This document shows positions 16,552 to 21,328 of a stretch of 64,000 bases of DNA, one piece after another (the first letter of the stretch is position 1; each line of letters opens with the position of its first letter). The stretch spans positions 1 to 64,000 of the forward strand of contig JACCWE010000124.1 in the NCBI GenBank assembly GCA_013697785.1, written 5' to 3'. Made by a program: the position numbers and the translations under genes. The notes under the pieces are model-generated. The model was given only the letters and a program-made list of their open reading frames with translations. It had not been told where the DNA came from and searched no databases. The stretch is from Gemmatimonadaceae bacterium. Lineage in GTDB: Bacteria > Gemmatimonadota > Gemmatimonadetes > Gemmatimonadales > Gemmatimonadaceae.

Positions 16552-16588
16552 GCCGGTCATCCCGTCCGCGCTATATTGCGGACGCCGC
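16531..16588 (+). promoter_or_regulatory. Candidate internal dcw promoter before murC, set in two inverted repeats
   Basis: Three things are visible. (1) CTCAAGT (16531-16537) and ACTTGAG (16546-16552) form a 7-bp inverted repeat that also contains TTGACA (16541-16546). (2) TTGAGC (16548-16553), an 18-base spacer and TATATT (16572-16577) form a promoter-like pair. (3) The TATATT lies in the loop of CGTCCGC (16563-16569)/GCGGACG (16578-16584). The predicted start near 16584 leaves only about five bases before the murC ATG. Confidence 0.5.
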
Positions 16589-17968: not shown

Positions 17969-18669
17969 CGCCTCTCATCGCGATCCTCCGGTCGATTCGC
18001 TGGCGCGCTGCGGGAGTCGCGGCCGTGATCGTCGTGCTGATCGCGACGCCCTGGTGGGGACCGCGCGCCCTCTCGCATCTCGATTTCTTTCGCGTGCGTC
18101 ACGTCGAGGTGAGCGGGCAGCGCTACCTTCCGCCAGAGGATGTGCTCAAGCGGCTTCGCGTCGACACCACCACGAATGTGTGGACCGATCTGCATGAGCT
18201 GGAACGCCGCGTGAAGACGCATCCGCAGGTAAAATCGGTGTCGATCGATCGAAATCTTCCCGGCACGCTCGTCGTTCACGTGACAGAAAATTTGCCGGTC
18301 GCGTTCGTCTCTGCCGCGGGAGGCTTGCGTGCGGTCGACGCCGATGGTCGCTTTCTCCCGATAGATCCGAGTCGAATCGCCATCGATCTTCCGGTGCTCG
18401 CCAGGGCGGACACCGTGCTCCTGCATTTGCTCGCTAACGTCCGGAGCGTGAGCCCTGCGCTCTTCGGTGAGATCAGCGACATTCGGAGAACGGGAGGTAC
18501 AGACATCGCACTCACACTCTCCTCTGCTCAGGTTCGCGCGCTCGCGAGCATCACCGCGCAGCGGCTTGCCGACATCATCCCCGTCGAGGCCGATCTCGCC
18601 CGCCGCAAGGCGCGCGTGACCGAGCTCGATCTGCGCTTTCGTGATCAGGTCATCGCCAGGACGCAATGA
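17965..18669 (+). CDS. ftsQ: Cell division protein FtsQ
   Basis: 234 residues: one N-terminal transmembrane helix (AAGVAAVIVVLIATPWWG), then a POTRA domain beginning FRVRHVEVSGQRYLPPEDV with the strand pattern PQVKSVSIDRNLPGTLVVHV, then the FtsQ beta domain. Bitopic divisome protein that binds FtsL/FtsB and restrains or triggers FtsWI. Start ATG at 17965 overlaps the murC stop; the longer frame from 17830 is murC shadow. Ends in ATGA overlap with ftsA. Confidence 0.92.
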   Translation: MTPLIAILRSIRWRAAGVAAVIVVLIATPWWGPRALSHLDFFRVRHVEVSGQRYLPPEDVLKRLRVDTTTNVWTDLHELERRVKTHPQVKSVSIDRNLPGTLVVHVTENLPVAFVSAAGGLRAVDADGRFLPIDPSRIAIDLPVLARADTVLLHLLANVRSVSPALFGEISDIRRTGGTDIALTLSSAQVRALASITAQRLADIIPVEADLARRKARVTELDLRFRDQVIARTQ

Positions 18670-19931
18670 ATCCCGAACGATTGGTCGCCGGCCTCGACAT
18701 AGGCACCTCGCGCACCACCGCTATCATCGCCGAAGCGGTCGGTGACTCGCTCAACGGCTCGCTCAAGATCCTCGGCGTCGGCAACGCGCGCACCGCGGGA
18801 ATGCGCCGCGGCGTCGTTTCCGACATCAAGGAGACTACACAATCCATTCAGAAGGCGGTGCGCGAGGCCGAGCGAATGGCCGGCGTGGAGGTGGATGGCG
18901 TGTATGCGGGTATCGCGGGCGAGCACGTCGAGGCGATGAACAGCTCGGGCGTGGTGGCGGTGAACGGCGATGAGGTGACGCGCTCCGACATCGAGCGCGC
19001 GAACGAGGTCGCGCGCACCCAGCCAATCCCGACGGACCGCGAGCTGCTCCATGCGATCCCGCAGGAGTATCGCGTCGACAGGAACGCGGGGATTCGCGAT
19101 CCGGTCGGCATGAGCGGCATGCGCCTCGAGACCGAGATGTACCTCGTCACGATCGGCTCGTCGCCAGCGCTCAACCTGCGCAAGTCGATCGAGCGCGCCG
19201 GCTACAAGGTGCGTGAGCTCGTGCTCGAGCCGCTCGCGAGCTCCTTCGCCGTCGTCACCGATGAGGAGAAGGAGCTGGGCGTCGCGCTCATCGAGATGGG
19301 TGCAGGCACGACCGACCTCGCGATCTTCCACGAGGAGAAGATCCGCTTCCTCGGCACCATCCCGTACGGCGGCGCGCACGTGACCAGCGACATCGTTCAC
19401 GGAATAGGTGTCACGCAGGCCGACGCGGAGCGTCTCAAGGAAAAGTACGGGTGCGCGTACGAGCCGATCTACGAACGCTCCGATGAGGTGATCAATCTGC
19501 CCAGCACCGTGGCGCAGGGGGATCGTGAGATCAAGCGCGAGCTGCTGGCGCACATCATTCACCAGCGGATGGACGAGATCTTCGGACTCGTGAATCAGCA
19601 GATCACGAACTCGGGCTTCGCGGGGCGGCTGGCGGCGGGCGTGGTGCTCACCGGCGGCGCGTCGGCGATCGAGGGAGCGGCCGAGCTGGCGAGCGATGTG
19701 TTCGGAACGGGAGCTCGTGTCGGGTCACCGGCAGCGAGCGTCGGCGGGTTGAGCGACGCGGTCGAGGCGCCGAGGTTTTCCACGGCGGTCGGGCTCGCGC
19801 TCTTCGGTGCGCACCGCATGTCGCTCGGCGCTGCAGGCTCGGCGGCGGCAGGAAAGCGTAAGGCGATGGGGTCGCCGGGGATGGACAAAATCGCACAGCG
19901 TGTCAAGACATGGCTGCAGGATTTTTTCTAG
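18666..19931 (+). CDS. ftsA: Cell division protein FtsA
   Basis: 421 residues, actin-like ATPase that tethers FtsZ filaments to the membrane. Visible: phosphate-1 loop GLDIGTSRTTAIIAE, phosphate-2 EMGAGTTDLAIFHE, adenosine-binding LTGGASAIEGAAELA, and a C-terminal amphipathic helix KTWLQDFF, which is the membrane-targeting sequence. Normal length. It ends the overlapped run of dcw genes; a 197-base gap separates it from ftsZ. Confidence 0.97.
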   Translation: MNPERLVAGLDIGTSRTTAIIAEAVGDSLNGSLKILGVGNARTAGMRRGVVSDIKETTQSIQKAVREAERMAGVEVDGVYAGIAGEHVEAMNSSGVVAVNGDEVTRSDIERANEVARTQPIPTDRELLHAIPQEYRVDRNAGIRDPVGMSGMRLETEMYLVTIGSSPALNLRKSIERAGYKVRELVLEPLASSFAVVTDEEKELGVALIEMGAGTTDLAIFHEEKIRFLGTIPYGGAHVTSDIVHGIGVTQADAERLKEKYGCAYEPIYERSDEVINLPSTVAQGDREIKRELLAHIIHQRMDEIFGLVNQQITNSGFAGRLAAGVVLTGGASAIEGAAELASDVFGTGARVGSPAASVGGLSDAVEAPRFSTAVGLALFGAHRMSLGAAGSAAAGKRKAMGSPGMDKIAQRVKTWLQDFF

Positions 19932-20128
19932 ACGATTCGAATCCTTACGGAATTGAGTTATCCACACGGAAATAACCGTTATTTGGTGGTGTGTTAATCG
20001 ATCGGGTGCACTATATTCACCCCAGCTTTTAGAGCGGCCCGCACACTCGGTCTCATTCGTCCGCACAAACGCCCCGCAGCGCCTCCGTTCGCTTGCAGGA
20101 TCTTCCACTTCCTGGAGTCCTCCCCGCC
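19932..20128 (+). promoter_or_regulatory. ftsA-ftsZ intergenic region with DnaA box, AT-rich palindrome and -10 element
   Basis: This 197-base gap is unusually AT-rich in its first third. It contains a perfect DnaA-box sequence TTATCCACA (19958-19966), the palindrome AAATAA-CCG-TTATTT (19970-19984), and a -10-like TATATT (20012-20017) flanked by GGGTG (20004-20008) and CACCC (20018-20022). No good -35 is seen. A GGAG at 20114-20117 precedes the ftsZ ATG by 11 bases. Confidence 0.5.
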
Positions 20129-21328
20129 ATGATCTTCGAGTTCGAGGAGAACACCTCGCAGAACGCCAGGATGAAGGTTGTCGGCGTTGGCGGCGGCGGC
20201 GGCAACGCAGTCAATCGAATGATCGAGGAGCATCTGGAGGGCGTCGAGTTCATCTCGGTGAATACGGATGCGCAGGCGCTGCTCAGCTCGAAGTCGGACG
20301 TCAAGATCCAGATCGGGAAGAAGCTCACCCGCGGACTCGGCGCAGGCGCGCGGCCGGAAATCGGTCGCCAGGCCGTCGAGGAGAATCGCGACGAAGTCCT
20401 TCGTGTGCTCTCGGGCGCGGACCTCGTGTTCGTCACCTGCGGCATGGGCGGCGGCACCGGAACGGGCGCGGCTCCGATCGTCTGCGAAATGGCTCGCGAG
20501 GCGGGCGCTCTCTGCGTCGGCATCGTGACCAAGCCGTTCCTCTTCGAGGGGCGGAAGCGCATGCGTCAGGCGGAAATGGGAATCGCCGAGATGCGGAAGC
20601 ACGTCGACACGATGATCGTGGTGCCGAACGAGCGTCTGCTCGCTGTGGTGGGGAAGGGAATTCCCTTCGGCGATGCTCTCAAGAAGGCCGACGAGGTTCT
20701 GCTTCACGCGACGCAGGGCATCTCGAATCTCATCAGCGTCACCGGGCTCGTTAACGTCGACTTTGCCGACGTGCGCACCGTGATGCAGAGCGGCGGCTCG
20801 GCGCTCATGGGCACGGGTATCGGCCGCGGCGAGAATCGCGCGACGGAAGCAGCACAGCAGGCGATCTCGTCGCCGCTGCTCGACAACGTATCGATCTCGG
20901 GGGCGACCGGCGTGCTGGTCAACATCACCGGCGGCACCGATCTGACGTTGGGCGAGGTGCACCAGATCAACGAAATCGTGCACGATGCCGTGGGCGACGA
21001 CGCCGAGATCATCTTCGGCGCGGTGAACGAGCCGGCGATGCAGGGCGAGATTCGCGTCACGGTGATCGCCACGGGCTTCGACCGGGTCGTGACCGGTACC
21101 GGCTCGAGCGCAATGGAGTCGCAGAAGAACGCGTCGCAGACGCCGGTGATTCCGTTCCCGAATCAGCGCCCGCTTCGTACCACGGTCCCCGCACCGCGTC
21201 CCGCGGCCAACGAGGGAACCCGGCGCTCCACGCAGCAGCAGCCGGGCGCAACTCCGCAGTCGACGGAGAAGGCTCAGGATCTGAACGACATGGAGATCCC
21301 GACTTTCATCCGGCGTCAGATGGATTGA
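20129..21328 (+). CDS. ftsZ: Cell division GTPase FtsZ
   Basis: 399 residues from the ATG at 20129 (MIFEFEEN); a TTG at 20093 is less likely. Tubulin signature [10 protein letters not shown], upstream [16 protein letters not shown]7 loop [11 protein letters not shown], a variable Pro/Gln/Thr-rich linker and the conserved C-terminal peptide [11 protein letters not shown] that binds FtsA. Forms the Z-ring. Probably transcribed at least partly from its own promoter in the preceding gap. Its stop overlaps the TTG of the next gene. Confidence 0.98.

Follow-up and report, generated by a model that had tools for sequence, protein, structure and literature searches.

How bacteria couple division to replication is an old question, and a DnaA-box word that much of a family keeps at ftsZ, at a similar distance from the promoter, offers an obvious site at which to study that coupling. 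The locus considered here raises that question for Gemmatimonadaceae: is the box upstream of ftsZ a genuine DnaA site, and does it act on ftsZ transcription? In the window (the whole stretch of 64,000 nucleotides analysed), ftsA (18666..19931, + strand; an ORF scoring 405.8 bits with TIGR01174, above the cut-off) is followed by ftsZ (20129..21328, + strand; TIGR00065, 424.9 bits), whose start is common to the genus. The exact DnaA-consensus box that the original prediction placed before ftsZ is present between the two genes as TTATCCACA (19958..19966, + strand), 26 bases from the ftsA stop and 162 bases from the ftsZ start. This classical DnaA box lies near a putative promoter, starting 54 bp before TATATT (20012..20017, + strand), the presumed -10 element of ftsZ. 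The gap is AT-rich, as had also been claimed, with 40–43% GC in 80-base segments between 19900 and 20019 versus 54–80% before and 51–71% after. No other exact TTATCCACA occurs in the window, where 0.02 copies are expected and an exact copy appeared in 2 of 100 shuffles; for the gap, 0.0011 exact boxes are expected from its base composition. The gap has a single exact box; a further one within one mismatch of TTATCCACA was not found in the 330 nt before ftsZ, and a generic sigma-70 promoter and terminator scan of 19850–20140 gave no match.

Absence of the box from close relatives would have counted against the original prediction, and the box withstood this test. We searched 134 genomes, assigned to Gemmatimonadaceae by their record titles, for FtsZ and dropped 11 in which the gene was absent or truncated (G031, G032, G078, G096, G103, G116, G122, G126, G147, G151 and G153), which left 123 ftsZ upstream regions from 31 genera. 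All five members of the window's genus have the exact box, and G111, from a sister genus, has it at the same place. Across the family, the word TTNTCCACA, whose free third position was picked after the data had been seen, was found up to 300 nt upstream of ftsZ in 85 of the 123 genomes and in 24 of the 31 genera, the genus count being the fairer number because congeneric genomes are related. The best of 559 permuted words reached nine genomes and five genera, and 200 Markov simulations gave at most five genomes (mean 0.74). The exact TTATCCACA precedes ftsZ in 42 of the 123 genomes, with a maximum of one in the simulations. Taken at 85 of 123 genomes and 24 of 31 genera, these counts point to a site conserved by selection. 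When unfiltered 8-mers were ranked by genera, TTATCCAC and TTTTCCAC came out on top with 14 genera each, a number also reached by the -10 word and by a single GC-rich word. The 6-mer TGTGGA occurred in 90 genomes, second to TATATT among the words listed, and stood among GC-rich background words when ranked by genera; no box word was in the top 16 of the 7-mer ranking.

Conservation is incomplete within the family. TTNTCCACA is missing within 300 nt of ftsZ in 38 of the 123 genomes, including every member of g13 (7) and of g24 (13). Given that GTGGA is kept at the site with changed ends in many genomes of g13, g24 and part of g20, the box is weak or lost in these groups. The word lies inside ftsA in at least two of the 85 genomes (G086 and G115), with the end of ftsA recognised by our script in only 72 of the 123 regions, and G014 has an exact box downstream of its -10 element. 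Outside the family, TTNTCCACA was found in none of 23 ftsZ upstream regions from two sister families, one of which has a site with one mismatch; among the sequences listed for these families, ftsA runs close to ftsZ. It was also found in none of 20 regions from five further families, in which the script gave ftsA–ftsZ gaps of 16 to 216 bases. Of the best 80 FtsZ loci from a named collection, 18 have the word, all within the first 26, a dividing line set after the result was known. These 26 are mostly titled Gemmatimonadetes, Gemmatimonadaceae, Gemmatimonadota or Gemmatimonas, and some records of the collection are the same genomes as in the family sample.

The box occurs in two layouts. In 75 genomes from 21 genera it lies on the minus strand, reading TGTGGANAA in the direction of ftsZ, and for the ten genomes that make up the rest of the 85 it was found on the opposite strand only. 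In the minus-strand layout, the distance from the box to a -10-like word (TATATT, TATTCT or TATACT) has a genus median of 85.5 bp and a range of 76 to 117 bp over 20 genera, G115 with its box in ftsA included; with genus medians spread from 76 to 117 bp, we do not claim helical phasing. In the window's genus (5 of 5) and in G111, the box is on the opposite strand, its distance to the downstream TATATT is 53–55 bp, and a palindrome separates them. TATATT itself is found within 300 nt of ftsZ, on either strand, in 92 of the 123 genomes and 29 of the 31 genera, and we presume it to be the conserved -10 element of the ftsZ promoter. Since the box persists in two positions and orientations, it seems to be the box itself that has been retained. 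A tree of FtsZ (47 rows, labels set by hand) is too weak at depth to tell which layout is ancestral.

Each layout has a second element beside the box. In the minus-strand layout, TCA-N6-TG starts at -31..-23 from the box in 41 of the 75 genomes (12 of the 21 genera), and 26–28 bases before it in 40 of the 75. When TCA was required at 26–28 bases before, 61 of the 123 regions had an exact box and 71 a box with up to one mismatch; the reversed control of this composite of TCA and box, also with up to one mismatch, was found in none of the 123. The element resembles the core consensus of IHF. A scan of 11 genomes for the composite returned six matches, four of them at ftsZ, and none when read backwards; the two others lie in C127 of the source genome, inside an ORF by our own reading, and in C3 of G008. 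A regulon defined by the composite was rejected on these numbers, 6 of the 11 genomes having no match. The word TCGTC also recurs around the box, mainly after it, with 49 occurrences in 14 genera between -60 and +90, 31 of them at +46 to +48.

In the window's genus, where the box lacks TCA-N6-TG at the 26–28 bp spacing, the neighbouring element is the palindrome AAATAA-CCG-TTATTT (AAATAACCGTTATTT; 19970..19984, no strand), a possible operator of a candidate dimeric regulator. It had been described as four bases from the box; the palindrome is present, but the spacing is three bases (CGG). Its core, ATAACNGTTAT, is intact in four of the five genus members and degenerate in G002 and G111. It occurs once in the whole source genome, at ftsZ, and a role as a genome-wide operator was ruled out by this single copy. 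The -10 element is flanked by GGGTG (20004–20008) and CACCC (20018–20022), as the original prediction noted, adding that murC and ftsZ share CTATATT within an inverted repeat. This pair is not kept in G001, G002, G003 or G004, the last being the closest relative with an FtsZ 98% identical, and it was discarded as an inverted repeat common to murC and ftsZ. CTATATT does occur twice in the window, at 16571 and 20011 (0.26 expected), as had been noted for murC and ftsZ; because TATATT is the conserved presumed -10 element, the link with murC is probably just one of promoters. Before murC, CTATATT (16571–16577) lies inside GTCCGC/GCGGAC with a TTGACA starting 30 bases before TATATT, and it looks like a promoter -10 element.

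An indication of what binds the box comes from the dnaA loci of the same organisms. Among the 30 best matches to dnaA from 37 genomes searched, TTNTCCACA lies within 400 nt upstream in 24 (14 of 17 in the family, 10 of 13 in the sister families) and is missing in six. In G026, assembled as a single contig, TTATCCACA is at base 1, 5' of dnaA. The source genome encodes a full-length DnaA with RDHSTVIH, whose C-terminal part matches solved DnaA domains, residues 361–446 matching 1J1V, a DnaA entry that holds a DnaA box, and DnaA of G026 matches PF08299; a DnaA with the box-binding domain IV is thus encoded. Since the same word precedes dnaA in 24 of 30 loci, with a further copy before parA in the source genome, DnaA is likely to be the binder of the ftsZ box. 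A 640-aa protein with two PF00308 matches and no domain IV match was also detected (G000:C139, L203:1144-3066 and L205:1033-2946), with relatives in the sister families. By our reading of coordinates, such stretches lie on the ftsZ contig in 19 genomes, about 21–28 kb away, two of these genomes having part matches only. This two-module DnaA-type ATPase is a candidate Hda-like regulator of DnaA.

The box word is not enriched genome-wide. The 3.81-Mb source genome has six exact copies of TTATCCACA and five of the word read backwards, the corresponding numbers for TTWTCCACA being 10 and 9; G026 gave 15 against 13. Two of the other five exact copies in the source genome lie in gaps on the dnaA-bearing contig, one before parA and one between the bactofilin and NIF3 genes with TTCTCCACA adjoining, and the remaining three are in coding sequence according to our ORF reading. 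The words before parA and at bactofilin/NIF3 (G000:C154:15080-18437) are about 17–20 kb away from dnaA and are possible markers of the replication origin. G026 (4.6 Mb) has only four exact boxes, all intergenic by the same kind of reading, located before dnaA, a gene for an Fpg-type glycosylase, an unknown gene and ftsZ. This genome also contains an inverted pair of TTATCCACA and TTTTCCACA with a separation of 53 bp (G026:C1:1630566-1630627); it lies in a gap of roughly 800 bp, before a gene without a Pfam match, and the pair could be a DnaA-titration or DARS-like locus.

The explanation we favour, and hold with some confidence, is that ftsZ of Gemmatimonadaceae has a separate promoter and that the 9-mer, in its regulatory region, is a real DnaA-binding site, at which DnaA would act as a transcription factor together with a second factor. 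In many genera the latter would sit at TCA-N6-TG, and in the window's genus it would use the ATAACCGTTAT palindrome. Bound DnaA may contact RNA polymerase or the partner at the second element, and transcription of ftsZ from the TATATT promoter could then be adjusted by the level or nucleotide state of DnaA, in step with the replication cycle. The centre of the box and the presumed start would be about 62 bp apart in the window's genus and about 93 bp apart in many others, the box lying upstream as with activators that bind ahead of a promoter. DnaA binding, its action on transcription, activation as the sign of that action and the cell-cycle role are what we infer from the sequences. In all, the site is real and conserved, its regulatory role is likely, and the window's genus has its own version of it.

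Among the alternatives, the one that survives best, although we consider it unlikely, is that another protein recognises TGTGGANAA and TCA-N6-TG and that the likeness to a DnaA box is coincidental. Position 3 is free at ftsZ, where A, T, C and G all occur, whereas upstream of dnaA the 24 loci with a site have TTTTCCACA, with one exception. The spacing of 26–28 bp to TCA-N6-TG could also mean a single bipartite site, and g13 and g24 keep mostly GTGGA alone. However, ftsZ has the exact classical box more often than any other form (42 of 123), dnaA and parA are preceded by the same word, and the window's genus has the box without TCA-N6-TG at that spacing. We give a rather small chance to the possibility that DnaA binds without affecting ftsZ transcription, the site serving to titrate DnaA or to mark the division locus. 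Such a role has been proposed for the silent boxes of Escherichia coli, which has three boxes upstream of ftsZ that are described as having no effect on its transcription (PMC8203912, PMC10532879), but a single box is little for titration, and many genera maintain the distances from the box to the -10 element and to other conserved elements, which a titration site need not do. A chance match has next to no probability: the gap is AT-rich and the word is hardly commoner in the genome than its reverse, but with 0.0011 copies expected in the gap, it is refuted by the conservation counts (five of five genus members and 85 of 123 family genomes).

Returning to DnaA as a regulator of the ftsZ promoter, the conserved box suggests a coupling of replication to division in Gemmatimonadaceae. 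More tentatively, a composite switch at a separate promoter of ftsZ may have evolved near the origin of the family, in which DnaA and a partner some two and a half helical turns from it would tie the supply of the Z-ring directly to replication initiation. Under the same composite-switch reading, and as speculatively, the box could in one clade have been re-sited with its orientation inverted, or gained a second time.

The original prediction invoked DnaA control of division genes in Proteobacteria, a precedent that holds for Caulobacter crescentus, where DnaA is reported to bind the ftsZ promoter region in vitro and to activate ftsZ (PMC3193534, PMC8203912), but not for the E. coli boxes upstream of ftsZ, described as not acting on its transcription (PMC8203912). 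In Gemmatimonadota, of which a few species have been characterised, FtsZ-based fission has been suggested in a paper that nowhere mentions DnaA in its main text (PMC11271474). Among the titles and beginnings of abstracts listed, we found no study of DnaA as a regulator in this phylum and, within the open-licence literature, none of DnaA boxes at its ftsZ genes. The E. coli boxes lie within ftsQA and share with the window's box a position upstream of ftsZ in the dcw cluster, whereas the latter lies between genes and beside a separate promoter. In Bacillus subtilis, DnaA binds the ftsL promoter (PMC8203912), likewise a division-gene promoter, although gene and phylum differ. Caulobacter has DnaA boxes in the ftsZ promoter region. 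It belongs to another phylum, however, and has two boxes, a configuration not found here, where there is one box with a candidate partner element and the genus, and broadly the family, keeps a similar distance to TATATT. Control of ftsZ by DnaA is known from Caulobacter, and what is new is the phylum, the architecture and the second element.
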